Origin: Hemibagrus wyckioides
Lineage: Eukaryota; Chordata; Actinopteri; Siluriformes; Bagridae
Direction of reading: 5' to 3'
Assembly (NCBI RefSeq): GCF_019097595.1
Contig: NC_080734.1
Span: 10,237,392 to 10,301,391, forward strand
DNA length: 64,000 nt
Below the pieces are notes generated by a model. That model worked only from the letters and a program-made list of their open reading frames with translations. It did no database searches and was not told where the DNA came from. Each line of letters begins with the position of its first letter. Within the stretch, counting starts at the first letter, position 1. This document shows positions 2,012-62,854 of this stretch, piece after piece. The position numbers were made by a program, and so were the translations under genes.

Positions 2012-2037
2012 CATACATACATACATACATACATACA
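2012..2037. repeat. (CATA)n microsatellite
   Basis: Uninterrupted tetranucleotide array of about six units in AT-rich intergenic DNA. Confidence 0.9.
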
Positions 2038-5000
2038 AAGATACATTTTAAATTCTGATAATTACCTTTTTAAGTAGCAAAAAAAATGCTATTTGATAGC
2101 ATACATATACATATAGATATTAGCTGATGATTAGCTAATGATCACCTAATTTTAATTATTAGCTGTCAATCACCTAAATAATTTATTCATCTTTTCAGAT
2201 GTGTTCACCTTTACCATGCTTAGTGTTCGGCAACAAGCTAGTAATGGACCCTCTGGGGCAAGACTCACACCGCCCCACGCACCAGGGAGGAGCAGAGAAC
2301 AGGCTGATTGTGTGGTGCCTTGTAAGTGGTAATTTGCATGTTTTGCAAATTGCGAGTAATGATGTCATATAATGCCTCGGTATGCGTGTCATGCAAAGCG
2401 GAACTGAACATGCATGCCTTCATGAAAGCATGTCAGAATGTGGAATGCAATATTCTGTAAAGCAACAGCAGAAGAACCAAATAGACATAGCAACAGCTTG
2501 TTAATAATATGATAACTCAAATCAAATCAGTGATGAGTTTAATGAGTTCAGTCTAGATTTAACCGAGTAAAAGAATGTAAAAAAAAAAAAAAAATTGACC
2601 TAAAGCCAAAAGAATTGATCTAAACTGTAAAACGACTGATCTAATGCCAATACTGTGATAAACTTCTTTAGAAATAAACGTACTTTACACTGTTCACAGT
2701 GTGGGTGGCCAGGCTGATCTGATCACTCGCTAGAATGGGGAGATAAATGGTAGAAAGTGGGATACTGGAGTGGATCATTTCTGTACAGCAGAAAAGTATA
2801 TTAAAATCAGTATATAAAACTTATTTCTTATTAACCTTATGGGGTTCATTTTCTAGAGTCTATAATATCAGTAAACTGTGATAGACTCATGACTTAATGG
2901 AGTGTGAGAGGAGATTGTTTTAGTACAGCAACAAAAGCAGTCCAGCAAGGTGTCTTCATTTTACATAAATGAAAACATTGTGCTGCTGTTGTAGAATTCC
3001 TGTTAACAATTACTTCTCGTTTCATCCTGAAATCCTCCTTGTTTTGCATCTTGAAGTCACAATCAGGGATCAAATGTTATCTGAAATTATGTTTGCTTTG
3101 ATTCTTTCAAGGCTTTTTTTAAAAAAAAAAAAAACAAACCCCAAAAAAAACCCCAATCTGTCTTCATTCTTGTAGTTTTTACAAACACAGGACATGATCC
3201 AATGAAACTGAACATGACGGTAAGTGCAAAAAGATGTAAGCTGTAACGTATGGAAGGAATAACCTGCAAAAGTGCAGCATCTCAAATTCACTATCAACTA
3301 TATTACCCCCCAAAAAATTCTTTTGAAGTTTCTCCATAATTCAAACGTCACCATGTTCATGGCTTGAATTTAAAGGAATAAATTTGTCTGATGCTCAGAA
3401 TACAATAGCAAACATCAAACATTCTTTTTACATGTTTCAAATTAATGGTGACTTCAATGTAAATCTCTCCTGCAAAGCCAAAAGGGCATTTGAGGCCACA
3501 GTTTGATGTACATTCCTGGGAATGCTCCAGGCCTCTGCTAAACTGTTACAGCACAGTGCACTGCATCCTCTGAAAAATAGGGGCATTTGAGGCCACAGAG
3601 CATTTTCCTTTTTTTCCCCTTTCCTTTTTATCAGAAAGCAGGCGCTCCTAAATCTGTGTGGCTACACACAAACACACACATTTTGATAAACATGTTGATG
3701 CTTTTTTAGAGGCACAACATAGGCACAGGGCCAAAAGGGCAGATAATGGGAAATATGGACAATTAATGATCCTGGATAAAACATCGTCACACATACAAAG
3801 AACGGTCATAAAAACTCTGCACTAAAAACGATCAAAATTTAATGTAAAGTGTGAGAAGGAACCTGGGTATTCGATGATTTAATTAGTTTTTATTAAGCCA
3901 ATAAAAATACACAACCCATCTTAGCTGGAATTCACTGGTGGAGTTGTTCTCTCCTGACAGATAGAATTAATCTCTGTTCAGTTTGTTATGACTGTGCATG
4001 TGGTGGGATTTTTTGTTGTTGTTGTTTTTTTAAGGAGAGTGACAAAGACATTGACTGTAACCCACATATTTCTCTACAGGAAATAGCTATCCTGAAGAAA
4101 GAGGGGAAAAAAACCCCCACACTTGAATCAAGTCCAGTCCTGTCCCATTACAGGAACGCCTTTGTTTTAATGCAAAGTCAATCATCATTATCTTTTCATT
4201 ACACCACAACTTCTGTATGCCTGGAAATTTGACCCATTTGCCTAATTTCATGGAGTTCTATGAGCAAGGTAAAATCGATAAATAAAAAATATAAAGAACC
4301 TAAAATGATTTGACATAGACATAGAGCTTCTCCGGGAATTCACCTGAGCGTTCCAGTTAAATCATTAGCTAGGTAAAGAGTGTTGTAGTGCAGGTTAAAC
4401 ATGTCAATAAAATCTCTGAACAGGGATTCAGATAAGATTATTTCAAAATCAATGTAAATATCTAATATTTTAATATATAATGTAATATTTTACTTTTACT
4501 TTTTCTCTTTTTTTAATATTTATTTTAATTTTAAATTCAAAATGAATTTGCCTTCGCTTTCAGTTGTTTCACTTTCAACTTGAGCAGAGATATTGCAAGC
4601 TCCAAAAGGAAATTATTTTATTGATTTAGCTTTGTCACTTTATTGTCTTGGTATATATAGTACCTATGTATAAATCTGTATAGAGACGCTATTGAAACTT
4701 TACTTTATCATCAAAATTGATCTGAAATATCAAAAGACAGATGCCTATTCTCTGCTGTGTTTCTATTCTATTTCTATTTTAAAAACAGGTAAATCAAGGG
4801 TGAAAAATTATGCTGCTAGATTTTATTCATCTATAGCAAGGGAGTAGAATGGAAGAGAGATGCTTCCCTTTTCCCCCCAGTGTTATCAGCCGTGTAAACT
4901 CTCCAGTATGTACAGAATTATGGATCTGTTGAAAATGTTGAGATTTAAAACAAGTACATTGTGGTGCACTGAAAGCCACTCAGAAGAAGAAAGAAAGGTT

Positions 5001-5648
5001 AAGTGGGCCGTTATGATGCGGCTACACTTTATATTAGCATATTATAGTGCAATATGATTGAGATATTCTGCAATCAAAATTGACCCATAAACAAATTAAA
5101 TTAGGCCCTGGGCTAACAAGCTAAGCCTAAGTCATGTGGTGTTAAAAGCTGCATTATAAAGCTGGTTAATAATCAATCATCAAATCATTTTTGCACCTAA
5201 GTAAATTTTGTAAACTTTGTGTCTATAAAATGTCTCTCAGAAAACCTGACACTAGGTTCAGCCAGCACTGAAGATCGCAATAAGGTGGTTCTAGTGTCGC
5301 ATGATGTAAAATAATGGTCGAGCAAACAATTATTGCATATGTGGCTCTTCATGTTTCAGATGAGGATGGAGCATGTCATTTCAGACACTTCTGTACCTAG
5401 ATCTATGCTGGAGATATTTTCTCTACGCTTAAAGGACTTAATTTGTCTCCCATTTGTAGAATGTTCCCACAATATAAAAAGATAACTACCGGCATTCTTC
5501 CTGATACAGACAAGAGTGAGACATTCTCAAAATGGAATTTGCTTTCACAGCGATAATGAAAAGAAAATTGTGTTTGTCTTTATTGGTAATTATTTTTATT
5601 TCAGTAACAACATATTGTTAGGGGGCAGTCTGTAACAGTGTTTATGAA

Positions 5649-5650
<2 letters not shown>

Positions 5651-5688
<38 letters not shown>
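5651..5688. repeat. (CA)n microsatellite
   Basis: Run of about 18 CA dinucleotides, the commonest vertebrate microsatellite type. Confidence 0.95.
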
Positions 5689-5689
<1 letters not shown>

Positions 5690-8600
5690 CAAAACAACAC
5701 ATATTTAAAGTTTTACACTAGATATCCCAGTAGGGTATCTTTACCTTACTTTCACTATGAATATTGAATGTTCACACTTCACACTTCTCTGGAACAGCAG
5801 GGGAAGTCTACCAGAAAGCTTTCCTATCAGCAAGACTTCCTGTAAGTATTTTTTTTAAGAACTTTTAAAGATGCCTATAAACCGACTATACTCACTCACT
5901 TTATGGTTTATACCAATTCCCCACACATAACTCAGGACCATAATATACATCATCAAACACTACTACTGTGTATTATGTTTCTTGGATAGATTTAGTGTCT
6001 TCTGTAAAGTTTAATGTATAGCTTTCTACACTGTATTTGTTGTTTCTACTAAATTTGTGGCGCTCTGTCTCTCTGTTTCTTTTCCTCTTGTCTGTCCCTG
6101 TTTCATAATAACTGTGGCACCGAACTGTATTTCATTCTTAACACCATGTCTGTGAAAGATGTGAAGAATGACAATGGCTTGTCTGGACCAGGGTACTTTA
6201 TATAACAACACTGTCCAAGAGTAATCAGGTTTTTATTATGGTGGGGTGTAAATATTTGCTCACCTCAACCTTGCCTAGATTTATAAAACAGGCTCGTTGT
6301 AATCCTTGTAAATTGAACTCTCTGCTACTTTGAGTAAAAAGTCTAGCATAAATGAAATGAAACCAAATAACAACGCAGTTTCTTCAGTGTTACCTTGTTT
6401 TTATCTGTGTTTTACCTTTTGTTACCAGCCAGTGAACATTGTCAGTTCCCTGTCTATTTTGTCTTTCAAATTTTTTCCTCTTTCTCTCTTTTTCTTGTGA
6501 AGGATGACACAATACTGAAATTCACAGTAAATTATTATAGCGCAGTACTCAAACACTCTGATTCTCTCTGTTCCAGATTCAGTTTTCCTGATGAACGATG
6601 GCACCCTTTACGTTCTAAATGCATAATTCCTTTTGTCGCTGATTAGTAGATATATTAAATATTTTAATATGACAAACTTCAAAGTCAAATCAGCAAAAAA
6701 TACAGCATGAGTACTTGAATAAAGTATTACTTTCATTCACGTATTTAGAGGGAAGATAGAATGATGACGAAGGTAAAATAAGGCAAGCATACATTTTACG
6801 TGACTTTAGTCTGTGTTATTTATTTCAACGTTTCTGCATTATGTAATTCTGTGTATTGTTTTCTCAGTGCCACATCTCAGTCAAAGTTGAAGCTATGCTG
6901 ATCAAGGTATTTATGTAAGAAATGTGGACCTGTGATGACTGGATGAAGATCTCCTTTCTAGGCCATGAAAAAACTGCCGATTCCTAAAACATTGGGCTAT
7001 TTGAGAAAGATTGTGACCAGGAATTAGACATTTTCCCGATGAACTGACAGTTGTGTTTTATCTGTGGTGATTATCTCCCCTAAGAATCAACTGTGCAGGG
7101 CTAGCCTTTGCATTGGAAGTTGCATCTCTCTCTTTAGCCAGCTTCTGGTTGCTGTTTACTGCGGCTTCTGTGGCAATAAACACTGAAAAATGAAGTGTCT
7201 GAATGCTGCAAATTCATTTTCAACATGAACATCATACAAAACAAAAAGCTGTGATAGCTGTGATAGCCTAAAAGCATGAGTGCATGGAGGATTCCCCATG
7301 CACTTGGGAGTGTGTAGCTTCTTCTCAGCAAAAGCACAGGCTTCTCATGGCAGATAATCTGTGGAAGTGAGACAATCAAATCCAAAGCTCTCAAAGCTGC
7401 TATATTTGACCGTATAAATCACTCAAAGCAGAAAACATCCTGGAGTAGACCGTGATAAGATTGGGAAACAAAGCAGAGATAAATTAGGATAGCTCACAGA
7501 GAAAATAAAAACAGGCTCAGTAGCATCAGTAAATCACTACAGTAACATGTACTGAAAGCTTGTGTTATATATGGGACATGTGCCATTGTGGATAGGTGAG
7601 GTTGATTAGAATTCTGGTGCTGGTCATTTGAGGAGGGGTCATGTGACGCAGTTTGTCATTTATTGTTGCGTTTATTGTTGCACTGAGAATAATTAAAGTA
7701 TTATTCTCAAAGCATACTCATCTATGTTTTAATTTATTGATTCCTTTATTATGAATTTAGTTCACTGTTGATTATTCGTTTTTTATGTGCTAAATCTAAT
7801 TTTTAGCACCCTGTGAGTCTCTTCTGTTAAGATAGGGTGGATAAACTGTATTACAAAGGAAGCATGACAGGTTTCATCTAATGCAGCCATTCTGGCTACA
7901 ACCCAATAAGTAGCAGCTCAAGCAGTAAGGATTGAGACTTGGGAAAAGAAGAGGTCAAACAAGGCCAGCCTGGTATTTAGAAGTCTGGCTTAGAAAGCTT
8001 TGGGGACAGTGTATTTACATGCTTAGATTTAGAGCAGCATAGTGAGTTAAGAACTATACAGTGAGTTAGTATGGTTTGTACATATAATTCACCTTTTGAG
8101 CAAATTTAAAAGCAGATGGTGACCTGATTTTCACTTTGCTTCAAAAATTCATCACACATGTTGGATAGCAGATGATAAATATTAGCCAGTGAACCCAGAT
8201 CTTTTACTCCAGTTCTTTTTCTTGCTGTTGAACGTTGAATGTTTCCAACAATGTTAAATCATTTTGTCTTCAAGATGATCATATAACATGTGTTTTCAGA
8301 GGTTTTCGAAAGCACAAAAAGTATGAATGTGGCATCTTTATTTGTATAACGTATAAACTTTCTGTATAAAATCTGACATTTTAGGTAAACCTTTCAGAGT
8401 AGAAATATATTGAAAGGAATTGTCCAAGCTTCGGAATCCAATGGGAAAAATGAGATTGTAAAAAAAGAAGTCAGAGGGTGTGATGATGACTGATAGAGAC
8501 AGAAGAATGCAAGTCTGCAATCCTGCACACTCTTAATTGGATGGCTAAAAAGAGACATTCCAAATACCTTTTACCACTTCTAAAAACTCCAATATAGGTA

Positions 8601-36640: not shown

Positions 36641-39600
36641 CAGAGTAAGAGTGTGTGTACATTTCGAGAGTATGGTATTTTTCTTACATACCACGTTATA
36701 CATTGCAACCAGAACTGTTTCTGTCTACTGGATTCTGAATGTGTGGTGAATCTAATGCTTTATTTCCTCGTTTTGCTGAAATGCCTTCAGTCATAACTAG
36801 GTGGTTATGTTTGCAGTCTGAATGCAGCAGTTTGGATTTAAATGAATGGAAAGAATAATGTTGAGGTGTTTGATTAAGGCTTAATCTTACAAACAGTATG
36901 TAACATAAACCAATCCTATTAGTAGTCAAAAAACTCAGTGGTGCTTTCCAGTATTTAAGACAGATTTTATACACTGATCAGGCATAACATTATGACCACT
37001 GACAGGTCAGGTTAATAACACTGATGATCTCCTCATCATGGCCCCTGTTAGTGGGTGGGATATATTAGGGAGCAAGTGAACATTTTGTCCTCAAAGTTGA
37101 TGTTAGAAGCAGGAAAAATGGGCAAGTGTAAGGATTTGAGCGAATTTGACAAGGGCCAAATTGTGATGGCTAAAGACTGGATCAGAGCATCTCCAAAACT
37201 GCAGCTCTTGTGGGGTGTTCCCGGTCTGCAGTGGTCAGTATCCATCAAAAGTGGTCCAAGGAAGGAACAGTGATGAACCGGTGACAGGGTCATGAATGGC
37301 CAAGGTTCATTGATGCATGTGGGGAGTGAAGGCTGACCCGTGTGATCCAATACAACAGATGAGCTACTGCTGAAGAAGTTAATGCTAGTTCTGATAGAAA
37401 GGTGTCAGAATACACAGTGCATGACGGGTCAGGGCTGTTTTGGCAGCAAAAGGAGGACCAACACAATATTAGGCAGGTGGTAGAGAGAGAATTATGAGGT
37501 ATATTTCATCAAACCGATTTTGACAGGTCTGACAGCCAATCAGAATCGTCCACGTCACAATGCCCCGCCCCTATCAACCAATCAGAATCGTCCACGTCAC
37601 AATGCCCCGCCCCTTTTCAACCAATCAGAAAAACGTATCCGACACAATATCCCACCTCCCTTTCATCCGATGATTGATGGGGTGGGGTTACATATTCCCT
37701 TAGTCATCAGAATCTTAATCTCACACACACACACACACGTGCACAAACCGTCAGTACGTGACACACACACACGTGCACAAACCCCCTGTACGTGACACAC
37801 CTACGCACATAAACATATATAAGTATGTTTCTACTGATAAAACATAGACGTTATAAGTTTATCTCCTGAAGGTTACGTATTCTATAGTCCTTAGTTACAC
37901 GTGTGTAGTGTTGCTTATCATACGCTATACTAACTATTTTATTTTTTTCCCCGCGTTATTTGTACGCATCTCAGTAATGGGGCAAAGCTGTCACTGACTC
38001 TTTGATACTCTGTGATGTCACTATACACATACATGGTGTAAAAACCTGCACGAATATCAACAGGGTTGGGTGCTTCTGGAGCTTCAAACGTTAACATACC
38101 GTCTGGGGGTAGACCCAGCATATAGGCCAGGTTTCTATTAGCGCTGAATGTGTACGATAATTGGCATACCATACGTATTTTATTTTTTATGGGGTTATAG
38201 GATAACTCCATGTCGATATTATGGTTTCTCATTGTTTGGTTGATTTCACTAACCAGGTTTTCAGTACTTTCGTAATACGCTTTAGTGATGTGACAGACGT
38301 AGTATTTTATTTTCTTTGATCTGTTCAACAGAACCACATGAAATTGACATTCTTTCTGGGTTACTGAGTGCCAACTATGGACATATTGAACCTCCGTGAG
38401 TGAGACTTCCCAGTCTCCTTTCAGATCAATTGGTTTGGCTAGTTTAGTAGTGTAGTGTGAGATCTTATTAGCAGGGTAAATGTCCGTAGACGCATTGCTC
38501 GGAAGAGTCACAAAGAATCCGCACTCATCCATGACTTAATGAATATAGTTAGAAGTTGTGTTCGTGTCGTGATCTTTAAATTCTATCGTGCGATGTTCAC
38601 TACTGCTTCAGCCGGAATCCAGGAATTGAATTTCCGGGGCCAATTAAGCCATTTCACCAGACATACCTTTTTCCGGTTTAGAGTCTTTTCTGACAGGATT
38701 TTCTCAATTTTGAATGTCTTGTCTTTTCCAATAATAATCTTTTGTATCTCAGGCTCATAAAATGTCCCATCAATTTTTCCCTGTCACAGTCTTGCAGTTT
38801 ATATACCAGGGGATCTCTCGGTATCCGTTCAGAAACTGTAAAATATTCATCCGTAAAATTTTGTTCGTATCCTTTTTCAAACTGTCCTTTTGATCTGGAA
38901 ATTCTAACTACGTCACCTATTTTATATTTGAATTTTATTTTCTCTATTTTCTTCATTTTCGATGAGCATAACCCGTAAAGAGTTTTAAATATCGTGAAAG
39001 AATTGGCTTCGTTGACCTCGGCTGGCTTCATTCTGATGCTGGAATGATAATTGTGGTTGTAACCATGAACCAGACCTTGTACAACGTCTGTGTATTTCCT
39101 CGTGTTAAATGTGGTAAAATATCTCCACATTTTGGTCTTTAGTGTTCTGTTGAACCTCTCACACACCGCTGCTTTTTGCCCTGTACCCGTGGCGAAATGA
39201 ATAATGTCGTGTTTTTTCATTAAATTCTGAAACTTCTTGTTAAAAAACTGCTTCCCTTGATCAGTTTGTAGGTTCTTAGGGGTTCTACCTTCCTTTAGAA
39301 TGGACTCAAAAGCTTTAGTTACTTCATCAGCGGTCTTGTTTCGTAACACACGCACCCAAGCATATTTGGATAAAATATCTATACACGTTATCAAACATTT
39401 CACATTGTCATTAATGTCTGACAGGTTACTCATATCTACTAAATCAGCTTGCCATTGTTCATCGATGTGTTTCACGAAAACAGTATTTCTTTTAAACTTT
39501 GTAGACACAGGTTTATGACGAGTGTAAGCATCCTGCTCGGCTAACCAATTTTTTATCTCTACATCATTAACTCTTTTACCCGTTTTCTCAACGATAGCTC

Positions 39601-42600
39601 TTTGCAAACTCTCAACACGGCCATATGATCCGGGATCGGATGGCGTATAATGGAGGGTTCATCTTTCCAGTCGCATATGGTAGCTTCTGCGATACCCTGA
39701 ATTTTTTCTAAGGATGGAGTTTTTTTTGACACCGCACATTTTCAGTCCTTTAGCCACAGCCTATTTCAACCAAGGTTTAAACAGCTTTTTCATCAATCTG
39801 TGGGAGTTCATATGCAAGTAGTATTGTACAGGATCGAAAAGGCACGAGTGTTGGAGTTGGCTCGGGTGATCGATCGCGCAACCGTTACAGTTGTCTTTGA
39901 GATCTTGGTCGATGATCCTGTCCAGCAGTTCACCCACCACAGCGTGGATGATAGCCAGAACAGTGGTAGAAATACACCCGTCAGCTTCATCGTTCGTAGA
40001 CAGATAGGTTAGATTTCTTTTTCCTAAGGAATCAGCGATGTTTCCATCAGCGTCTTTACAACCAGAACAGGACGCATCACCATCGGAAGCGAACGGGGTG
40101 TAGAAGAAGGGGTTGAATTCTTGAGACATTTCGTTCTCAGATGATCAGATGTTTTTACAACAGAAAATTTAGTCAGGGTCAGAGTCAGTAGAAGGTGTGG
40201 TTTCTGTTCAGTCTTGAAAGACTATTGAATCAGAAAAGTTCCTCTAGTTTTACACGTAATGCTTCCATTTCTTTGATTCTCGCCACTTTTTCGAATGATT
40301 TGCTGATTTGATTAAAGTACTGATCTAGATCATGCCAGCTGGCACGTTCAAACCTCATTTCACAGATCTCTCCGTCTTCAGATGTGTAGGCTTTGGCCTT
40401 AGCGGTGGTAGAAATATGTAGTGAGACTTGATTCTTGGAGAAATTTGTTGCTCTGATGCGGTATGTCAGATGCGGAGATGTATAGTTTTTCCATTTCCGT
40501 TTGTAGGCCATCGGTGAAAAGAAATCCATCCGAATGATGTAGTCAAAGTCTTTACACTGTTTACGAAACTTGACCCAGTCACTCAGGTCAAAAGTCACCA
40601 TCTCCGTGGCATTGCTGCAGTGAATTCGCCCCGGTACCGATAGCTTGAAAAGCGTTACGTCTACTGAATCTACATTGAAATAAGAACAGACTGTGCAGTC
40701 TTCTGATAATGTCCAGTATTGAACATTTTCGCATTCTAAGATGTCTGAAAATCTACCCATAGTAGATTTCTGTTTTTTAGGTGCACCAGGACAAGTAGCC
40801 ATAGTTGTGCTCAATGAATCTACGATATTCTGTACAACATAAAATATTTCAAGGGGAGAAAATTGGTGTGTCATGTACTGACGGTTTGTGCACGTGTGTG
40901 TGTGTGTGTGTGTGTGTGACATGTTCAGGAAAACCCAACGATGACTAAGGGAATATTCTGGACATTAACTTATTCAATATGCCATATCAGTAGAAAACAT
41001 GCTTATGTACGTAGATGTGTCACATACTGACGGTTTGTGCGCGTAGGTGTGTGTGTGTGTGTCATGTTCAGGGAGACCCAACGATTTATAAAACATTTTT
41101 TTAAAATGCGTGTGTGTGTTTGTGTGATTAAGATTCTGATGACTAAGGGAATATGTAACCCCACCCCATCAATCAACCTCATCGGATGAAAGGGGGGCGG
41201 GATATTGTGTCGGATACGTTTTTCTGATTGGTTGAAAAGGAAGCGGGATAATGTGACGGATATGTTTTTCGGATTGGTTGAAAAGGGGCGGGACATTGTG
41301 ACATGGACGATTCTGATTGGTTGAAAGGGGGCGGGACATTGTGACGTGGACGATTCTGATTGGCTGTCAGACCTGTCAAAATCGGTTTGATGAGATATAC
41401 CCCATAATTCTCTCTGGTGGTGTATATGCACGAATCCTTAAATGTTTCTTGTTCATGGACGTGCCTAGGAATATTCAGAAAAACCATTTCCAACCCGATC
41501 CTACTCTACTCCTGTAAAATGGAAAACATCCACACTGTGTCCAGTGTAGCTGTATTTTTTCCTGGAGTGTTTTTATTATGTTCATTCAATATTAGCAAAA
41601 GGTTAATAATTATTAAGAATTGCACACGTTTTTGTCATTGCAATCCAAATGGTGGTCATACTTTAATAAATGTCCCTCAATCTTGTAAATTTGCCAGTAT
41701 AACACACTTTAAAAACCCCACAAGTGTTAGACGTACTTTAACGATATTTCTGTAGATAGGCCTAATTATACCAGATTGCATTTCCACTCCTCAGGTGCTG
41801 CTGGGGTTCTAGTAGGACATCCTTTTGACACTGTAAAAGTAAGTACATTGGTTTATATACCATGTTCATTTTACTTTATATTTCATATTTCATGTTTGCT
41901 TTGTGGCCTGTAATGAACAAACATTGGCAACCCACAAGAAATCCTTCCTCATAGTAGTCATGAGCTATGGGCTTTGCATTTAATGGTGCCTTTGTGTTTA
42001 CAGTTAGTTCCACTTTTCTAAAGTTGCTGTTAATATTTGTATGATAGTTTTACTTTAAGTTTCTGTAAAACCATGCTTTGTCTTTTATAGGTCAGGCTTC
42101 AAGTGCAAAATGTGCACAAGCCTTTGTACAAGGGAACATTTCACTGTTTCCAGTCCATCATACGGCAAGAATCAGTCAGTACCAGTTTCTTTGTGTTCCT
42201 TTGCTTATTTTTATTATTTTAATAGTATAAATTCAAATCAGTGAAAGAAATAGGATGGTAAATCATTTTACATTTAAATGAACCTGATTAACCAATTTGC
42301 TGGAGGAAAATGTATAAATAGTTGTTATTTTCAAAAAATATATTAGTTACATTAAATCTACCTATAACCTAGGTAGCCATGACAATGAAATGGGTGATGA
42401 TGTTATACACTAACAGCTATGGTTCCCTACAGATATTTGGTCTGTACAAAGGCATTGGTTCTCCTATGATGGGCCTGACTTTCATCAACGCCATTGTCTT
42501 TGGTGTGCAAGGCAACACAATGCGTCTGCTGGGACGAGACACTCCCACAAACCAGTTCTTAGCAGGAGCAGCTGCTGGAACCATCCAGTGTGTTATTTGT

Positions 42601-43200
42601 TGCCCAATGGAACTGGCCAAGACACGCATGCAAATGCAAGGCACTGGTGAAAAGAAGAAGTCCACTCTCAAGGTGTACAAAAACTCATTGGACTGCCTGG
42701 CCCGTATATACCAGCGTGAGGGCGTGCGGGGCGTCAACAGGGGCATGGTGACCACCCTCATTCGAGAGACGCCTGCCTTCGGAGTGTACTTCCTAGTCTA
42801 TGATGTATTAACACGTTCACTGGGCTGTGAGCCAGATGACTCGTACATGATCCCTAAACTGATGTTTGCTGGTGGTATGTCAGGCATTGCCTCATGGCTT
42901 TCTACATATCCTGTGGATGTGATTAAGTCTCGGCTCCAGGCAGATGGTGTTGGAGGAAAATTCCAGTACAGTGGCATCATGGATTGCACACGCAAGAGCT
43001 TAGAGAAAGAGGGCTGGCGTGTGTTTACAAGAGGCCTCACATCCACTCTGCTACGAGCTTTTCCTGTTAATGCAGCTACTTTCGCTACCGTAACACTCTT
43101 CCTCATGTATGTACGGCGAGAGGAAGCTCCCAAGGATTGTGAAGCTGACCCACAACACCATGCTGCATTACAGCAGCAAGCACAGCCTACCAGCATGTAA
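31048..43200 (+). CDS. Mitochondrial basic amino-acid carrier SLC25A29 (four coding exons)
   Basis: A mitochondrial inner-membrane carrier; the human orthologue transports arginine, lysine and ornithine. Coding exons are 31048-31078, 41795-41838, 42091-42174 and 42433-43200. All introns are GT-AG, phases 1, 0 and 0, giving 308 residues against 303 in human. The three Solcar repeats each carry the PX[DE]XX[KR] signature: HPFDTVK across exons 2-3, CPMELAK in repeat 2 and YPVDVIK in repeat 3. Strong matches to the family include GSPMMGLTFINA, QFLAGAAAG and TRGLTSTLLRAFPVNAATFATVT. The start is ATGATG in exon 1, where MDFVAGCLGG matches the usual carrier N-terminus. Intron 1 is 10.7 kb and holds nested mobile elements on the opposite strand; no exon is disrupted, so the gene appears functional. 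Confidence 0.93.
31946..32212. repeat. Tandem duplication, about 125-bp unit, in slc25a29 intron 1
   Basis: The block 31946-32067 recurs at 32081-32212 with a few changes and a small indel. Shared markers include GATGATGTTGGTGTG, CACTTCAGCAT and TAGGATGAGTAGAAAGC. The high identity suggests a fairly recent local duplication. Confidence 0.85.
32245..32555 (+). repeat. Interspersed repeat common in otophysan fish
   Basis: It contains the sequence run GATGAGGTTCCCTTCTGAG, then CTCAGGGAGTTTTTCCTCA, CGTTGCCTCAGGCTTGCT and TGCTATACAAAAGAATTG with a GAATT-repeat tail. I recognise this as a high-copy repeat from catfish-like genomes. The element class is uncertain, possibly a non-LTR 3' end or SINE. 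Confidence 0.6.
32560..36590. other. slc25a29 intron 1 interior, nothing further recognised
   Basis: No nested gene or well-bounded mobile element was seen. Short open frames lack recognisable similarity. Confidence 0.5.
36592..36646. repeat. (GA)n microsatellite
   Basis: About 20 GA units with flanking imperfect GACA, in slc25a29 intron 1. Confidence 0.95.
36972..37481 (+). mobile_element. Truncated Tc1-family transposon copy, abutted by the Polinton-like element
   Basis: It begins after a TA with CACTGATCAGGCATAACATT, the same end as the copy at 61205. The N-terminal transposase region follows ([16 protein letters not shown], helix-turn-helix). Most of the catalytic domain is missing, and near 37430-37481 the sequence resumes with the 3' end (CAACACAATATTAGGCAGGTGGT). 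The remaining terminal repeat, present in the other copy, is absent because the Polinton-like element begins at 37482. Confidence 0.8.
37482..37841 (+). repeat. Left terminal inverted repeat
   Basis: It pairs with 40987-41415 in inverted orientation. From the outer end inward: AGAGAG terminus, a GACAGGTCTGACAG block, three CCAAT units (37536, 37578, 37621), a GATGGGGTGGGGTTACATATT block, a CA-rich tract with two GTGCACAAACC motifs, and a TTTCTACTGAT block. The right copy has one extra CCAAT unit. Confidence 0.85.
37939..38532 (-). CDS. Conserved element protein, LPSNAS type (F54H12.2-like, function unknown)
   Basis: A 197-residue protein, last gene of the cluster. It begins MDECGFFVTLPSNASTDIYP, followed by SHYTTKLAKPIDLKGDWEVSLTEVQY and, near the C-terminus, AGFYTMYVYSDITE then SDSFAPLLRCV. 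From memory this pattern belongs to a family found beside transposon-type integrases in invertebrate and fish genomes, similar to the C. elegans transposon-derived protein F54H12.2. Remembered relatives continue beyond the PLLR motif, so the end here may be premature: the stop lies in a T run (37942-37948 on the plus strand) that could hide a frameshift. The function is unknown to me; a structural or virion-like role is only a guess. The start 7 nt from the 38539 region leaves only a short gap to the integrase tail. Confidence 0.65.
   Translation of the reverse strand: MDECGFFVTLPSNASTDIYPANKISHYTTKLAKPIDLKGDWEVSLTEVQYVHSWHSVTQKECQFHVVLLNRSKKIKYYVCHITKAYYESTENLVSEINQTMRNHNIDMELSYNPIKNKIRMVCQLSYTFSANRNLAYMLGLPPDGMLTFEAPEAPNPVDIRAGFYTMYVYSDITEYQRVSDSFAPLLRCVQITRGKK
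38583..39658 (-). pseudogene. Retrovirus-type integrase (Polinton/F54H12.3-like), frameshifted
   Basis: The main frame (39658-38678) holds the catalytic core: first Asp in WQADLVDM, second in LQTDQGKQFF and the Glu in CERFNRTLK, with 33 residues between the last two. An N-terminal SYGRVESLQRA segment is open upstream of any ATG. The C-terminal half of the frame departs from the family after DCDREK, at a 5-T run on the plus strand (38774-38778). Beyond it another frame reads a chromodomain-like tail with the typical WLxWP and SWIP motifs, ending at the stop at 38583-38585. A single-base loss in the homopolymer explains this. At the 5' end, no ATG precedes the core in frame, and coding-like sequence continues in another frame beyond 39661. 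The copy is therefore probably inactive unless the breaks are assembly errors. Confidence 0.8.
39761..40129 (-). CDS. Small cysteine-rich element protein, function unknown
   Basis: A 122-residue protein starting MSQEFNPFFYTPF. Cysteines cluster as CSGC near residue 21, and CNGC with IDHPSQLQHSC near residues 82-98, a spacing that could bind zinc. A hydrophobic helix (TTVLAIIHAVVGELLDRI) lies between them. The C-terminus is basic. I believe similar CNGC-IDHPSQ-HSC sequences accompany related integrases in other fish, but cannot verify it. No start signal favours another ATG. Confidence 0.6.
   Translation of the reverse strand: MSQEFNPFFYTPFASDGDASCSGCKDADGNIADSLGKRNLTYLSTNDEADGCISTTVLAIIHAVVGELLDRIIDQDLKDNCNGCAIDHPSQLQHSCLFDPVQYYLHMNSHRLMKKLFKPWLK
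40230..40802 (-). CDS. Conserved element protein of about 190 residues, function unknown
   Basis: First gene from the right end. The frame is open to 40922, but the upstream part is only a translated CA repeat (His-Thr), so the likely start is the ATG at 40802 (MATCPGAPKKQKS), preceded on the minus strand by short AT-rich sequence. The protein has a WVKF / YKRKWKNY central region, several beta-strand-like stretches, and a charged C-terminal helix (KVARIKEMEALRVKLEELF) with heptad character that may self-associate. I recognise no enzyme motif. Its place at the promoter-proximal end suggests it is the first gene expressed. Confidence 0.6.
   Translation of the reverse strand: MATCPGAPKKQKSTMGRFSDILECENVQYWTLSEDCTVCSYFNVDSVDVTLFKLSVPGRIHCSNATEMVTFDLSDWVKFRKQCKDFDYIIRMDFFSPMAYKRKWKNYTSPHLTYRIRATNFSKNQVSLHISTTAKAKAYTSEDGEICEMRFERASWHDLDQYFNQISKSFEKVARIKEMEALRVKLEELF
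40894..40918. repeat. (TG)n tract between element genes and right inverted repeat
   Basis: This tract follows an ACTGACGGTTTGTGCACG motif that recurs at 41028-41043 and, inverted, in the left repeat at about 37736-37757, showing an internally repeated subterminal module. Confidence 0.85.
40987..41415 (-). repeat. Right terminal inverted repeat
   Basis: The inverted partner of 37482-37841. It has four CCAAT units (ATTGG on the plus strand at 41227, 41273, 41316 and 41359) against three on the left, plus point differences and a different CA/TG tract length. The divergence shows the insertion is not brand new. Confidence 0.85.
41200..41380 (-). promoter_or_regulatory. Tandem CCAAT / CRE-like / GC-box array reading into the element's genes
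   Basis: Units of about 43 bp each contain CCAATCAG (NF-Y type), an ACGTCAC half-CRE in some units and CCCGCCCC (Sp1/KLF type). On the minus strand they point toward the element's four genes. The order and spacing resemble a strong housekeeping or viral promoter. No TATA box was seen. The left repeat has the same array pointing inward on the plus strand, where no gene follows. Promoter activity is inferred. Confidence 0.5.
41422..41794. other. slc25a29 intron 1 end, between the element and exon 2
   Basis: No repeat or gene was recognised. The polypyrimidine tract and AG acceptor of exon 2 are at about 41780-41794. It does not contain the missing 3' terminus of the Tc1 copy that borders the left side of the element. 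Confidence 0.6.
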
Positions 43201-45942: not shown

Positions 45943-48900
45943 TTACTCATCCTGGGATTTTTTACCAGTCACACCATCCCTAGTTTTTGCACGGAGCTTG
46001 TTCACTTGGGATTCGGCAATATCTGCACGCTCCTCTGCCTCTTCAAGCTCGTGCTGTAGTTTTCTTAACTTGGCCAAGTTGGTATTTGCTTGCTCTTCTG
46101 CTTCCTCAGCTGAGCGCTTGTAGGACTTCACTTTGAGCTGTAGCTTGTCAACCAAATCCTGGAGTCTTGCCATATTCTTCCGATCTTCTTCAGTCTGATA
46201 GGTGAGTTCCTTAATGCGGCGCTCATACTTGCGAATCCCCTTTACAGATTCTGTACCTCGCTTTTGTTCTGCTTCCAATTCATTCTCAAGTTCACGGATG
46301 CGAGCTTCCAGTTTCTGAAGCTGTTTCTTTCCCCCCTTCATAGCTATTTGTTCGGCTTCATCTAGCCGGTGCTGCAAGTCTTTGATCGTTTGCTCCATGT
46401 TTTTCTTCATTCTCTCAAGATGAGCGCTGGTGTCCTGCTCTTTCTTCAGCTCCTCTGCCATCATAGCCGCGTCAGTTATTGCCTTTTTTGCTTTCTCCTC
46501 AGCATTCCGGTTCTCTTGTACCAACTCTTCCATCTCACCCTGTAGCTGTAGCAAATCAGCCTCATGCTTCTTCTTTTGGTTGATCAGGCTGGTGTTTTGA
46601 GAATGCAGTAGCTGCATCCTCTCTGTTGCATCTGTAAGTTCTTGCTCAGCCAGCTTACGCCCCCTCTCAGCTTGTTCCAACATTGCCCTTAGCTCCTCAA
46701 GCTCTGCCTGAATGAGGTTATTTCTCCGTTCTAACAGGGCAGTGTTCTCTTTGAGATCTTCATTATTATGAACAGTATCATCCAGTTGAAGCTGAGTGTC
46801 CTTTAAATATGACTGGACCATCTTAAGTTGTTTTTGTGCATCAGCTGCCTGTCTGTTGGCTTGACTTAGCTGAATTTCCATCTCATTTAAATCTCCCTCC
46901 ATCTTTTTCTTAATCCTTAGTGCTTCATTACGGCTTCTTGTTTCTGACTCAAGAGAACTCTGTAACGTTTCTACCATTCGTTGGTAGTTCCTCTTTGCCT
47001 GTTCCATCTCCTCGTCTTTCTCTGCCATCTTTCTTTCAATGTCTGCCTTTACCTGATTGAACTCAAGTTGGGCACGTAGGATCTTGCTTTCCTCGTGTTC
47101 TACCGCAGCCTCCGCTTCCTCCAGGGCAGACTGCAGCTCTGCCTTCTCTTGTTCTAATTGTTTCCTGAGTTTCTCCAGCTCATGAACACTCTTACCTCCT
47201 TCACCAAGCTGATCTGTCAGGTCTGATATTTCTTCTTGCAGATTCTTGTTCTCCCTTTTGAAGGTCTCAAGTTGATCAAGAGTTTCTTCATAAGCATTTT
47301 TAAGTTTGAAGAGTTCAGTGCTCAGATTTCGTGCTTCCTTCTGCGATGCTTCCAACTCACACTGTGACTCTTCATACTTTTGCTTCCATTCAGCTATGAC
47401 CTTATCAAAGGCACGTTGTTTCTTGTCCAGAGCCGCAGATGCAGCATTTGACCGTTCAAGATCCAGCATGAGGTCTTCAATCTCATTTTGCAGACGATGT
47501 TTAGTTTTTTCAAGAGAGGAACACTTTGCATTAACTGCCTCTACTGCCTCCTCTGCCTCTTGTAGCCTTTGAACAAGTTTTTTCTTGGCCTCTTCCAGTT
47601 CCTCTGTTCTCTGAATGCCGTCTGTCTCATACTTAGCTCGCCATGTTGCAACTTCAGAGTTTGCCTTGGACAGTGCCCGCTGAAGCTCTGCTTTAGCCTC
47701 CTGCTCCTCCTCAATCTGCTCCCTCAGCAAATCACAGTCATGGCGAGACGACTGCACTGCATGAGCAAGTGCGTTCTTTGCTTTGACTTCTTCTTCATGT
47801 TGCCTTCTCAGGTCCTCTAATTGTTGGGTGTAGGAACTTTTTCCTCTTGTGAGTTGAGAGATAAGGCATTCTTTTTCCTCCAGCTGACGCCCAAGTTCCC
47901 CATTTTCTGTTAGCAGTTTGGCTCTTTGAGTGGAGAAATCGTTTAGAGCTTTCTGAGCCTCTTCAGCCTTGGACCTATGTTCATTCATCTGATCCTCCAA
48001 GGAGCGACACATCTTTTCAAGATTCACCTTTGCTTTCACAATGCTCTCCATGTTTGAGGCCAGGTCATCCATTTCCAACTTCAGCTCTGTCTTTTCTTTC
48101 TCTAACTTTTGTTTGACTCGTTGTAGATTGTCAATTTGTTCACCAAGTTCAGCCACACTATCTGCATGCTTTTTTCTCAGGGCAGCAGAAGTGGCTTCGT
48201 GCTGCAGTGTAGATTCCTCAAGATCCCTGCGTAACCTCTGAAACTCAGATTCTCTTTTCTTGTTGAGCTCCACTTGAGCAGATGTGGCTCCACCTGCCTC
48301 CTCGAGCCGTTCACTAATGTCTTCTAACTCACGAGAAAGATCACTTCGCTGTTTTTCCACCTTTGCTCTGGCTGCACGTTCAGCATCTAGCTCCTCCTCT
48401 AGTTCCTCTATACGAGCTTGGCTTTCTTTTAATTTTTTTTGCAGTTGCACTACAGCTAATTGCTCATTCTCAATCTTTCCATTCAGTTGATTTATTTCAA
48501 AATCTTTCTTCTTCAGTTTCTCCTCTTGCTGCTGCTTATCATTCTCTAAATCCATTACATTCTCTTGAATCAGCTTGAGGTCGCCTTCCAGTTTTCTCTT
48601 GGCACGTTCAAGATCCATCCTAACTTTTTTTTCTTGTTCTAGGGTGCCTTCAAGATCATCTACCTGCTGCTCAAGCTTAGCTTTAGCTTTTGCCAATGTG
48701 TTTGCTTTATCTTCTTCACTCTGCAGATCATCTAGTGCCTGCTGCTGAGCCTCCTGGAGAGCTTTTTTCTCTTTTGTGAGCTTCATTATGATCTCATCTT
48801 GGGAGGCCATTTCCTCAGTGAGGTTTTTCACTTTATTCTCAATAGCATGTTTTTCTTTCTCAACTTTGGCTAGAGTTAACTCAAGGTCATCAATGTCTTT

Positions 48901-51747
48901 CTTTAGCTCAGAGCATTCATCTTCCAGCTTACGCTTTTTGGCTGTGAGTTCAGCATTGATCTCTTCTTCATCTTCAATCCGCTCAGTCATCTCTTTAACT
49001 TTAGCTTCCAGCTGGATTTTGCTCTTTATCAGCTGTTCACAACGCTCTTCTGCATCTGTCAGTGTATCTTGCTCTGACTGCACCTGGAGAAGTAAATCAT
49101 TCTTTTCTTGAAGAAGCGTGACCATTTTCTCCTCCAGCTCTTTTCTTCGGTTTTCAGATTTATCAAGAGCCTCTTTTATTTTGTTGAATTCATCTTTCAT
49201 ATTTGCCATCTCTTTCTCAGCCTCAGCACTCTTGAGAAGAGGCTTTATTTTAAAGAACAATTTCATCCAAGGCCAGTTTTTCACACTTAGGAAGGAGCGA
49301 AGGTTCCACTGAACAACCATTAGTGCATCTCTGCGTTCTACTAATTTTTGATATTCTGCTCTCATTAACAAAGCTCGAGCATTAGCTTGTATCCTGGTAA
49401 TGATCCGGGCAAGTTGTTCATCCCTCATTTCTTCCAGTAAACCCAGCAGACCAGCTTTGAAGAAAACCTTTGTGTGACCAAACTTATACTGTGTATGGTC
49501 AATGTCGAGTGATCCCAGTAGCTTCTCGGCACTCTTTTTGTTTTCAATAAACTGGCCTTCTGGGATAGCAGATGCATTCAGAATTCTGTACCTCTGTTTG
49601 AAGTCACCATAGAGTACCCTGTTGGGAAATCCTTTCCTGCAAATTCGGATGCCTTCCAGTACACCGTTACAGCGAAGCTGGTGCATCACAAGGCAGTTAT
49701 CCATAGCTCCAGGAGTCTTGGTCTCATTGGGAATCAAACACCGAACAAAATGTGGATGAGTGGTTTTGAGATTTGTCATCAGTTTGTTAAGGTTTTCTCT
49801 GTGGAGGGCTGATACAGTCTGAAAAGATGACCCCTTCTTCTTACCACCTTTTCCACCTGATTCAGCTGCTCCTGCATAGCTGGAAAAAAGATTGCTTAGA
49901 AGCTTGAGCGATGATTTTTGATACAGTCCAACCACTGTTTCATTTAGTGGATCTTTGTTTTTAACAAGCCAGCCAGCAATATTGTAATCAACAGTGCCAG
50001 CATAGTGAACCAGTGCAAAGTGTGCCTCTGCCTTGCCTTTGATAGCTCGGGGCTTCTGGAACATGCTCGATTTGCCCAAGTGATTATCATAAAGCTTTGC
50101 CTTGAAAGTCTGGTCGCTTGCTTTTGGAAACATGCACTCTTCCTCAAGAATAGACATGATTCCAAGAGGTTTCTCAATCAGATCAATACAGGCTTGCAAG
50201 TCCATCCCAAAGTCAATGAATTCCCACTCTATTCCTTCTTTTTTGTACTCTTCTTGCTCCAAGACAAACATGTGGTGATTAAAAAACTGTTGCAGTTTTT
50301 CATTTGTGAAATTGATGCAGAGCTGCTCGAATGTGTTAAAATCAAATATTTCAAATCCAGCAATATCTAACACACCAATGAAATATTGTCGATGCTGCTT
50401 GGTGTCTAAGGACTGGTTGATTCTGACCACCATCCAGCTGAACATCTTTTCATACACTGACTTTGCCAGTGCACCAATTGAGTAGTATACTTGATCAACA
50501 CCTTGGCCTTTTGTGACATATTCATTGCCTACCTTAACCCTTGGATGACAGAGTCCTTTAAGGAGATCAGCAGAGTTCAGCCCCATTAAGTAGGCTGACT
50601 TATCAGCAGCTTCAGTGCCATCTGGTTCTGCCTGTTCTTCTCGCTGTTTCTGCTTAAATTTCATGTTGCCATAATGCATGATGGCTCCTGTGAGTTTGTA
50701 GACTCCCATCTTCTCATCTGGGGTGAAGCCAAGCACATCAAAGGCATTATCAGTGGCCATTAACTCTTCACTATCATTTATGGAGGGAACACTTACTTCT
50801 CCTTGGGAGATGTAAGAGTAATCATATGGATTATTTGTAATCAGCAGCATATCCAGCAGCTCAGGCTTTGCATTGGTCAATATCTGGTAAAAGATGTGAT
50901 AGTTCCTTTCTGCCTTTAGCTGAAAGGTCACTCGTGATTTTTCCAGCAGGTATGTTTCAATGTCAGCTGAAGAAAGTTTACCACTTGTTCCAAAATGAAT
51001 GCGAATGAACTTTCCAAAGCGGGATGAGTTGTCATTTCTCAATGTTTTGGCATTGCCAAAAGCCTCTAGTGCAGGGTTAGCCTGGATGATTTGATCTTCC
51101 AGTGTCCCTTTGTTAGAGTCCTTCTTTCCCCCACTTGCTCCACCAGCAGCTGCAATACTTGCAAAATATTGGATTACTCTCTTCGTGTTAACAGTCTTAC
51201 CAGCACCAGATTCTCCGGTGATGAGGATGGACTGATTTTCCCTGTCCGTTAGCATGTATTGATAAGCATTATCTGAGATGGAAAAGATATGCGGAGGAGC
51301 TTCAGATCTTTTCTTACCTCGGTAGGCAGCAACTACTTCTGCATCATACACAGGCAACCATTTATAAGGGTTGACTGTCACACAAAACAGCCCTGAATAG
51401 GTATAAATCATCCATGCTGCATAGCGCTCTTTGAGGTTAAACAGCACTGCAGGCTCATGTAGGAACGTGAACATTGCCATATCTTCGATTTTATCAAATT
51501 TGGGTGGGTTCTGGGGATGAACATCTGTCTCTTTAACAGTTACTGTCCTTCCATCCTCTGTCTTCACAGTTGCTTTCCCATCTTCCTTGCTGATTATTTG
51601 TCCTTTCACATATTCCACTTTGTCATCCACTACAAAACATTCAGTTTTGATGTCAAAAGGTCTAGTTTGAGCTTCAAGCCGTTCTTTGTCCGACTTCCTC
51701 AGGAAAGGAGCTGCTTTACCAAATTCTGCCATGATAGCATCACCCAT
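45943..51747 (-). CDS. Sarcomeric myosin heavy chain, cardiac/slow (MYH6/7) class, intronless
   Basis: The molecular motor of striated-muscle thick filaments: an ATP-driven actin-binding head plus a dimerising coiled-coil tail. The frame is open for 1934 residues, the length of vertebrate sarcomeric heavy chains (about 1935). The head has the SH3-like N-terminus, P-loop GESGAGKT (178-185), switch [10 protein letters not shown], switch II DIAGFE, loop 2 with KGGKKKG, the SH2/SH1 region [15 protein letters not shown], and the light-chain lever ending at [14 protein letters not shown]. The tail keeps the heptad pattern to the end, with the conserved segment [14 protein letters not shown] and a short variable C-terminus [10 protein letters not shown]. 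The sequence is closest to cardiac/slow MYH6/7. Vertebrate sarcomeric MYH genes normally have about 40 exons; this copy has no intron. Start: ATGGGTGATGC, the usual MGDA N-terminus. All motor motifs are intact, so it looks functional. Confidence 0.95.
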
Positions 51748-59548: not shown

Positions 59549-61204
59549 CTGGGGGAAATAAAAGTGAAGTCGTGTTTTTTTCATCTTCCCCAACACAGCA
59601 AGACTCTGGGAAACCAGATCAGCTTGACACCGACAACTGACAACACCTCACCACATCTACTTCAGTCAGAGTAAAAAAAAAAAAAAAAAATCAAAGCACA
59701 ATACAAACAATGCCACATAGGTCAGCAATGAGTCCTTGAATTCTCTCAAGTGAGAAAGAGGTGGAGAGAAAATTACTACACACCCAGAAGAAAACACACC
59801 CCTCCATGCAAAGGTCTGTAGTCTATAAAATAAACAACACTGATGGGTTATGTTTCAGGCTGAACAACGCACATGCCGTCTGTTTGCAGTTCCCTTTCAC
59901 CACACCACTGTTAACACTGATGGAGTAAAGCGCACCATGACCCTGAATAACTATGAAAATGGACACTGTCCTCAATTTTTCCACTGTGAAATCAATCACA
60001 TGCCTGCAACAGGAGCAGGCTGAGTTACAGTGTCAATTCCTGACTGATTACATTCCTGATTTGTTACAACTGCTTGTGTGTATTGCCGCGGTGTTCTTAT
60101 CCCAACCCAGAATAAAGGATAGGCACATTTAACAAGCTGACACTGTCACAAAGCAACTTTAGAGAAATCCAGGCGTAAACACTAATGAGGATAAAAAACA
60201 AATTAAACGTATGAATCTATGTGTATTATCATTAACTGATTATAGAATTGATTAATACGTTTGCCAGGTCTGTGTTAATAAGCTGTGGAAATGCTACACT
60301 GGAGTGCATCTTTGCTTAATAATATAGAGAAATCTTTCATGTTGGAAAGCCTATTTATATAATGCAATGTCATATGCTTTAGACGTTTCACAGTGGAGTA
60401 TAATATGTTGATATACTATGTCCATACCTGAGTAATATCTACAGGCTATATCCTTGTCAATATTTACACACAAGTGAACATCAAACAGAGCAGAATGATC
60501 ATGTAATAAAGCTACACAGAAACTAAGAGGTAATAGGACGAGTTTACAGAAGCCTGAACAGTAGAGCCGAATAGAGTTACTAGAGATATACTGTAGAGTT
60601 CTAAAGCCACTTCGTATACACAGTTTTAATATATGAAATCCCGTACATTTTGTGAACTCTTCATATGTTACATTTAATTCATAATCATTTATAATTTCAT
60701 TTCAAGAAAGCTGAAATTCTAATCATCTCACATGGATCTAATGATCTCAAAGTCAAGCGTCTTCAGTGTGCATCAAAAATAAATAAATAAATAAATAAAT
60801 AAAAATACAAAATAGAAAGAAATAATTTGCTGTTTGGAGGGGACTGTTTTAACTTGAGGAGACTTTAGGGTAAATAGGAATGTCTTGAAGCCTTACCTAA
60901 ATGTTCCTGTCAGTTAAAGGTGATATTTAGTGATGGATGTCTCTCATTCTGTTCACATCAAGGCATTATTCTTCTCTTGCAAGACATCTATAAGGAAAAG
61001 GTGATTGTTGAAAGTTACAGAAAGAGCTTAATCTGATAATTAATGATAAATGTGTTTATCAGAATCAATATACATTTATTTAAATGACCGATTATTTGCA
61101 AGGACATTAATGTTTAATCCAAGATAATTTTCTACATTTGTTGTTGAAGACAGATGCATGCATCTTTTTTCTTTAGTTATCAGTTTTTCTTTTTATTTGA
61201 TATA
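59549..61204. other. Region upstream of pak6 coding exon 1
   Basis: AT-rich, with an (AAAT)n array at about 60777-60803. It probably holds pak6 5' UTR intron and noncoding exon(s). No CpG-rich promoter was seen here, so the true promoter may lie beyond. Confidence 0.4.
60897..60987 (-). other. Possible noncoding 5' exon of pak6
   Basis: On the minus strand a pyrimidine-rich TTTTCCTTATAG acceptor precedes 60987, and a strong donor ...ATTTAG|GTAAGG follows 60897, bounding 91 nt. It contains a short ATG-to-stop frame only. The splice sites look good but there is no transcript support. Confidence 0.3.
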
Positions 61205-62066
61205 CACTGATCAGGCATAACATTATGACCACTGACAGGTGAAGTGAATAACACCGATGATCTCCTCATCATGGCACCTGTTAGTGGGTGGGATATATTA
61301 GGCAGCAAGTGAACATTTTGTCCTCAAAGTTGATGTGTTAGAAGCAGGAAAAATGGGCAAGCGTAAGGATTTGAGCGAATTTGACAAGGACCAAATTGTG
61401 ATGGATAGACCACTGGATCAGAGCATCTCCAAAACTGCAGCTCTTGTGGGATGTTCCCGGTCTGCAGTGGTCAGTATCTATCAAAAGTGGTCCAAGGAAG
61501 GAACAGTGGTAAACCGGTGACAGGCTCATGGGTGGTCAAAGCTCATTGATGGACGTGGGGAGCAAAGGCTGGTCCGTGTGGTCCGATCCAACAGACGAGC
61601 TACTGTTGCTCAAATTGCTGAAGAAGTTAATGCTGCTTCTAATAGAAAGCAGCAGGATACACAATGCATCACAGTTTGTTACATATGGGGCTGCATAGCT
61701 GCAGACCAGTCAGGGTGCCCATGCTGACCCCTGTGCACCACCAAAAGCTGCAACAATGGGCACGTGATCATCCAAACTGGACCATGGAACAATGGAAGAA
61801 GGTGAAACACATTCTGATGAATCATGTTTTCTCACATCGAACCAGGATGCACTATGGGAAGAATGTAAGCGCAGGCAGTGTCATGCTTTGGGCAGTGTTC
61901 TGCTAGGAAACCTTGGGTCCTGACATCCATGTGGATGTTACTTTGACACGTACCACCTACCTAAACATTGTTGCAGACCATCTGTAAGTGTAGATCTAGT
62001 GGAGTCCATGCCTCAGTGGGTCATTGCTGTTTTGGCGGGTGGTCATAATGTTATGACTGATCAGTG
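61205..62066 (+). mobile_element. Tc1-family transposon, internally deleted, 862 bp
   Basis: The ends are inverted copies of CACTGATCAGGCATAACATTA, flanked by TA on both sides. The plus strand keeps the transposase N-terminal helix-turn-helix region ([16 protein letters not shown]...[20 protein letters not shown], 61353-61520) and part of the catalytic region (VRVPMLTPVHHQKLQQWA, then PNWTMEQWKKV, about 61695-61805). Frameshifts and deletions separate them. The same family as 36972-37481 but with different deletions; not able to make transposase. Confidence 0.85.
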
Positions 62067-62854
62067 TACATTAGATTGTTGATGTGAAGCTGAGATAATG
62101 CCTCAATGCTCAATAAATGATAAAACCTTTGTGCAATTTTACTAATGTTTGTTTATTCATGTTAGATAGCATGAGGTCAAATGCAGTTAGGCAGATTTTT
62201 TAATATAATACCTTTAAAGCAAAAATAAATAAATTGACAGTTTAGCTGTAAGGAGTCCCTCTGGAATATATGTAATAATTATTTACAGTCAAATTTGGTG
62301 GGTGTTTTTGGACACATCACACACTTTTACTTTGAAAAGTAGTACAGCTTCACAAAGAGTTAATGAGAAATACACAGACTAAAATTGCGCAAGCGTGTGT
62401 GTTGTTCTTCAAATTGTCTTTTAGCAAGCTAGTTCTGGCTAGCTGGCTAGACTTCAGAATTGCCTGGAGTGAGTAAAATTACTCTACAGTACAGTCATGC
62501 ACAAACAGAGCACTGAGAGGTCAGAGCAGTGAAACCCTTTCCCCTACAGCTGACTGGGGAAAGGCCAATCCTGGAAGCACCGGACATGAGACAGGAATAG
62601 AGGGCTTAAACAAGGTGCCAGTCTATCGTAGGGCACAATGTACAAATATTTATATACAGATTCACACCTAAGTTCAATTTATCCACAGAGCATGGTAGAA
62701 TGTTTATAGCTTAATTCTCCCAAGCAGTACCTCTGTCTGCACTCATACATTCATTTATATATTTTTTTATCACTGGTTTTTGTATTTGCACTAAAAGGAA
62801 ATAGACATCAACAGATAAGGCACAGGGGTTACAGATAATATCATGGCAATATCA

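Follow-up and report, generated by a model that had tools for sequence, protein, structure and literature searches.

Does a 3.9-kb unit that carries the ends of a Maverick (Polinton) and four genes represent a distinct small lineage, or is it the remainder of a much larger element? The question is raised by a 3,934-bp element located at positions 37482-41415 of the Hemibagrus wyckioides stretch analyzed here (64,000 nucleotides in full, referred to as the window), which an earlier note on the same DNA had described as a miniature element with compact genes. The element is interpreted as the dead product of internal deletions in a vertebrate Maverick (adintovirus-like), the parent measuring about 15 kb or more, at a probability of about 0.95. 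Its gene identities, broken frames, junctions and target-site duplication, as well as the existence of longer relatives, were observed directly, and comparison of the junctions between copies settles the choice between a lineage and a deletion derivative.

The 3.93-kb unit is bounded by inverted repeats, as the earlier note had recognized. The left terminal inverted repeat (37482-37889) starts with (AG)n, includes repeat units with CCAAT and GC boxes and matches the repeats of other copies up to position 37889; the right one (40960-41415, inner edge approximate) ends with (CT)3. Blocks of 97% complementarity were found in the inverted arms at 37484-37571/41328-41415 and 37671-37736/41110-41175, and mismatches within the outer 239 bp of the arms occurred at 8 of the 237 positions compared. 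The termini read AGAGAG...CTCTCT, corresponding to (AG)3//(CT)3, and are directly abutted by GGTGGT on the left (37476-37481) and on the right (41416-41421) side. Hence, the AG terminus and the 6-bp target-site duplication proposed in the earlier note were both found, the latter exact at both ends. Since GGTGGT is frequent in the window (28 occurrences vs. 20.5 expected), its evidential value derives only from this exact abutment. The element was inserted into the remnant of what we take to be a Tc1-like transposon (36968-37481, plus strand). In this left flank, 405 bp align at about 92% identity with positions 61201-61605 of a second copy in the window (61201-62068), which features GGTGGT near its end (62038-62043).

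All four genes of the element are located on the minus strand, again as described before, and three of them, namely those encoding the penton, c5 and the integrase, are broken. The identification of a retrovirus-type integrase (38586-39652) was confirmed by its rve domain (PF00665, E 4.9e-12), and two chains of solved structure, both designated 'Integrase', match it by sequence as well. Acidic residues, presumably the catalytic ones, are present at D55, D116 and E150, with 33 residues separating D116 from E150. The open integrase frame covers positions 38678-39607; the chromodomain (PF00385, E 2.1e-7; about 38586-38780) resides on a piece in a different frame, and upstream of the conserved N-terminal part (39620-39652) there is no in-frame ATG. 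A chromodomain is given as a feature of Maverick/Polinton integrases in the accessible text of PMC11071296.

The three other proteins had been regarded as unknown and conserved-looking, but for only one of them was no relative found. The first is a truncated penton (minor capsid protein) at 37887-38532, with an open frame at 37939-38532. Of 27 candidates, 22 are related to it, including a protein recorded as 'penton [Astyanax tetra cavefish adintovirus]' with 54% identity and another with 60%; its class is assigned by sequence relatives. These relatives comprise 244-279 amino acids (aa) in 20 of 22 cases, vs. 197 aa for the window frame, in which the frame is lost near residue 196 and the 3' end is gone. 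The second protein, c5 (39650-40129, open frame 39761-40129), is a truncated relative of 'acintoc5' of Astyanax tetra cavefish adintovirus (198 aa, 67% identity over the aligned part), one of 12 relatives among 19 candidates, whose lengths range from 96 to 198 aa. Its 122-aa frame is followed by an internal stop and a frame change, and the C-terminus is lost; in another copy of the same genome, c5 features an open frame of 217 aa. Only the 190-aa protein (40230-40802; 40230-40922 according to the open reading frame finder) is an open frame without a relative, with none of 27 candidates being related at E <= 0.001. Because the corresponding gene was found, whole or in part, at six further loci in this genome (L011, L012, L014, L017, L018, L021), it belongs to the element family as an accessory gene.

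Moreover, no match to PolB, ATPase or protease was obtained among the five frames scanned for the window element, in line with its previous description as a Polinton/Maverick-type element without a polymerase gene. No DNA remains between the penton and the repeat. The impression of compact genes filling the interior did not hold, since the penton lacks its frame and its 3' end, and c5 and the integrase are broken. Given these three broken genes and the missing polymerase, it appears unlikely that the element is now able to move by itself.

The joint between the penton and the opposite repeat was placed by script alignments at 37887-37889, with an overlap of 3 bp. A query covering this joint (37842-38540) was compared with the 790-Mb assembly that includes the window and that was used for all own-genome comparisons. 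This resulted in 42 matches (40 of 81 candidates scored), and among the matches listed only one, the window itself, spans the joint. Eight other matches extend from query positions 42-46 (window 37883-37887) to the query end at 93-97% identity, four of them belonging to a set on C17. Others have a shorter extent or a lower similarity, and four cover the repeat part (positions 1-48) alone. In the 14.9-kb copy at C6:40.51 Mb (copies are designated by their position), the two sides of the joint are about 10.6 kb apart, a deletion size measured on this single copy. The second joint, between c5 and the integrase, was located at 39650-39651 with an overlap of 2 bp. An interval of about 620-720 bp, gone from the window element, is kept in all five copies compared (L011, L014, L017, L018, L021); for L011, the match on the c5 side does not begin again before 39715.

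Longer copies bounded by the same repeats were detected in the same genome. The left-repeat query yielded 245 matches, many of which are short tandem pieces (40 of 128 candidates scored), and elements were delimited by pairing opposite repeats by position. The largest spacings between paired repeats are about 15.0 kb (C19:1.02 Mb) and 14.9 kb (C6:40.51 Mb), followed by 10.7, 10.4, 10.1, 9.8, 9.4, 7.9, 7.5, 6.1, 6.1, 5.1 and 3.9 kb, the last value representing the window element. PolB (PF03175) was found in the 14.9-kb C6:40.51 and the 9.4-kb C8:12.20 copies, and an A32-type ATPase match in the former was weak and below the cut-off. Furthermore, the copy at C19:2.13 Mb encodes an adenovirus-type protease (PF00770) on DNA that is shared by C6:40.51, and the C15:12.29 copy contains an open 365-aa integrase frame with both rve and chromodomain. 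The gene order in the family is accessory gene, c5, integrase and penton, followed by further frames, which corresponds to the second module of vertebrate Mavericks and the accessory region beside it as published (PMC8097293). In the C19:1.02 copy, a different deletion fused the 190-aa gene directly to the penton, and yet another deletion was found at C15:5.94 Mb, which indicates that deletion derivatives arise repeatedly in this element family. As a separate observation, four repeat and penton matches at a spacing of about 27 kb were noticed on C17 (about 12.95-13.04 Mb), probably the result of a tandem duplication with a Maverick inside it.

The earlier note had preferred a distinct small lineage over a deletion derivative. 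In its full form, this would be a miniature Maverick lineage or satellite whose four genes function and which moves as a unit of 4 kb. The two repeats, the 6-bp duplication and an unknown gene with an open frame would agree with it, as would the presence of other short elements with the same ends in the same genome. However, the other short elements retrieved differ from the window element in interior or deletion, three of its four genes are broken, its penton/repeat joint is contained in only one of 42 matches, that of the window, and its c5/integrase joint is absent from 5 of 5 copies. Such a lineage is therefore very improbable, and on the basis of the junction comparisons a new four-gene lineage was rejected for the window copy. 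The opposite picture, mentioned in the earlier note as well, of full-length relatives throughout and a single deletion product at this locus largely holds for the window copy: copies of about 15 kb possess the same repeats and the penton/repeat joint is unique among the 42 matches, whereas many relatives are shorter and the long ones are damaged. A Ginger-type cut-and-paste transposon would likewise be small and combine an rve integrase with long inverted repeats. Ginger elements cause a 4-bp duplication and are not known to possess capsid genes, in contrast to the 6-bp duplication, the (AG)3 ends and the penton and c5 relatives (including adintovirus proteins) recorded for the window element, and copies in which PolB and an ATPase-like gene occur are enclosed by the same repeats. 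Membership in this DNA transposon group with a Gypsy-like integrase, as characterized in the accessible text of PMC2836005, is thus hardly credible and was rejected in view of the 6-bp duplication, the penton and the long relatives.

Several observations weigh against the interpretation of the element as a decayed derivative of a full-length parent. The two longest copies are damaged, and no undamaged full-length copy was demonstrated among the copies retrieved: the 14.9-kb C6 copy has a gap within the integrase, and the 15.0-kb C19:1.02 copy is without c5 and integrase beside its 190-aa gene. The uniqueness of the c5/integrase junction in the window copy rests on five copies compared. The penton frame break leads to the same 197-aa frame in the C6 copy and was perhaps inherited from the parent instead of resulting from decay after insertion. 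Decay appears moderate, as frames of 122-309 aa persist in the three broken genes and that of the 190-aa protein is open. In the empty-site comparison, the left flank and the position of GGTGGT agree with the second Tc1-like copy, but the right flank has no match to the end of that copy.

In the favored interpretation, the parent started beside the right repeat with the 190-aa accessory gene, after which c5, integrase and penton followed; the published Maverick plan continues with PW, the major capsid and the protease and places PolB and ATPase on the opposite strand. Two deletions at overlaps of 2-3 bp, one of about 620-720 bp between c5 and integrase and one of about 10.6 kb between the penton and the opposite repeat, left both ends in place, and the location within the Tc1-like remnant with a 6-bp duplication is what a Maverick integrase acting on the terminal repeats should produce. 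We infer the order and the cause of the two deletions. Possibly, although at somewhat less than even odds, the larger of the two occurred while Maverick DNA was replicating, comparable to defective genomes of adenovirus or adeno-associated virus (AAV), and integrase provided in trans then inserted the shortened molecule. Short overlaps at both joints would fit this course of events, and so would other deleted copies with 6-bp duplications of their own (CCCAGC at C15:5.94 Mb, after shifting the boundary by two bases; ATTAGG at C8:12.20 Mb) and two palindromic copies with 6-bp duplications (two-base shifts), a form that is hard to make by simple chromosomal deletion. However, the window locus offers nothing to separate it from a chromosomal deletion after integration of the full element, and among the matches listed this deletion occurs in no other copy.

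Target-site duplications were read for 13 elements with both ends. Three of them (window, C19:1.02 and C8:12.20) show a six-of-six duplication at the set boundary, and seven more do so once one end or both are moved by one or two bases (C15:5.94, C7:19.59, C7:22.25, C4:31.04, C15:12.29, C7:31.58, C29:19.84). By our own estimate, such a match with shifts arises by chance in about 1% of elements (49 trials in 4096), and the match of C29:19.84, which sits in a GT repeat, is uninformative. The duplication matches at five of six positions for C6:40.51 and is absent for C10:16.09; C12:0.88 shows three of six at a mis-set script boundary and, by eye, CATGTC on both sides.

The two palindromic copies, both read from the assembly and requiring a raw-read check, look like integrated snapback genomes. 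The copy at C7:19.59 Mb (L013:573-6649; C7:19587072-19593146) consists of 2,601-bp arms with 99.0% identity and a loop of about 0.9 kb, is flanked by TATAGT on both sides (two-base boundary shift) and carries PolB-side coding DNA. In the copy at C7:22.25 Mb (L020/L023; C7:22245780-22256153), the arms match over at least 4.2 kb at 98.4%, and CTTAAG flanks both sides (two-base shift), its last two letters overlapping the AG end. The latter belongs to a gene-less family described below, the former is outside of it.

Within the 23 repeat-bearing loci retrieved, some of them only in part, Maverick ends enclose a shared private interior, which measures up to 5.7 kb, at eight loci (C10:16.09, C29:19.84, C7:22.25, C12:15.21, C16:8.26, C1:1.60, C12:0.88 and C4:31.04; locus labels L015, L016, L020/L023, L025, L028, L029, L033 and L035). 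With positions 1250-7000 of the C10 copy (5,751 bp) as reference and blocks of at least 300 bp counted, the seven other family loci cover 1,990-4,605 of the 5,751 bp at 81-98% identity, mostly above 90%. Coverage elsewhere amounts to 294 bp at C15:12.29 and 0-20 bp at the other 14 loci including the window. Beyond the private interior, the eight loci share the repeats and nearby DNA with coding copies, and several of them are incomplete. A comparison with 14 Maverick proteins gave no match at these eight loci. The longest frame of the C10 interior encodes 83 aa (shuffles: mean longest 60, maximum 101), and four frames of at least 60 aa were counted vs. 1.6 in shuffles, two of the four being open or nearly open in several copies; the interior may thus contain short genes. 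Frames above 130 aa in some of the loci lie within a minisatellite, near the ends or beyond the shared part.

This eight-locus group looks like a non-autonomous Maverick family that is apparently gene-less, and its putatively mobile copies may be satellites or integrated defective genomes. The satellite idea of the earlier note, for which the window element itself gives no sign, may accordingly hold elsewhere in the same genome and is better placed in the gene-less family. Rather doubtful as a whole is the view that Maverick-like viruses regularly yield defective genomes in this fish genome (deletions, palindromic snapbacks, gene-less forms), with replication and integration provided in trans. 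The window element would then be one integrated deletion genome, and the gene-less family of at least eight loci would be an established vertebrate Maverick satellite. A literature search under phrases for non-autonomous or defective Mavericks retrieved no paper.

CCAAT and GC boxes are far commoner in the terminal repeats than in their surroundings. Counted on both strands, CCAATCAG occurs six times in the window element vs. four times in the remaining 60 kb, and CCGCCC five times vs. twice; in view of this density, the repeats may act as promoters. Dating the insertion from the divergence of the left and right repeats was rejected. Repeats of several other copies also differ within one copy (84-94% identity in blocks for L014, L017, L011/L002 and L012/L004; 98-99% for L013 and L015), and therefore the arms need not have been identical when inserted. 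Minisatellite units of the inner Maverick repeat were additionally observed as long expanded arrays inside some copies (L019, L020; C4:31.043-31.052 and C7:31.578-31.587 Mb). Regarding c5, residues C63, C66, H70, H76 and C78 (P0029 residues 63-78) are invariant in an alignment of ten rows and represent a candidate metal site in a helical adintovirus protein.

In the neighborhood of the element, an exon-like stretch and a 273-aa frame at 41790-43200 (plus strand) read by eye as a mitochondrial carrier (SLC25-like), and the element may reside inside an intron of this gene. An uninterrupted frame of 1,934 aa at 45943-51747 (minus strand) reads by eye as a complete myosin heavy chain and is apparently an intronless gene; a literature search on such a frame found no paper.

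By itself, the window element is an ordinary viral fossil that belongs to a known kind, and it led to copies with the same ends and very different interiors. The accessible text of PMC8097293 describes vertebrate Mavericks with 5'-(AG)3//(CT)3-3' ends and a 6-bp duplication, with integrase and minor capsid protein in one (second) module and with accessory genes flanking the core modules. The window element resembles them in its ends, its 6-bp duplication, its repeats of about 400 bp, the neighboring integrase and minor capsid genes and its outer accessory gene. It is decayed like most published Mavericks, 96% of vertebrate loci being reported there as degraded. Unlike intact Mavericks, which measure 12.7-24.6 kb according to the same source, it comprises 3.9 kb, neither PolB, ATPase and protease nor any further core gene was found in it, and its remaining core genes are broken. 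Regarding Astyanax tetra cavefish adintovirus, the penton (54%) and c5 (67%, aligned part) have relatives there; in contrast to that virus, the window proteins are truncated, and none of 27 candidates proved to be related to the 190-aa protein. Particles of this virus group have not been observed, as stated in PMC8097293.

AAV snapback defective genomes, as far as described in the accessible text of PMC8235507, differ from the palindromic copies in being packaged particles and not integrated in a chromosome, and differ from the window element, which is not palindromic beyond its repeats; they offer a possible model for the palindromic copies L013 and L020/L023. If Maverick replication indeed made and moved the gene-less family and the palindromes, these would represent genomic traces of defective or satellite virus genomes. 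Non-autonomous deletion derivatives of DNA transposons retain their termini, have lost their interior and transpose only in trans. Unlike these, the window element shows no sign of spread, as no second copy of its deletion was seen; like them, it keeps its termini and lost its interior, and it illustrates clearly how a deletion derivative can mimic a small, compact element.

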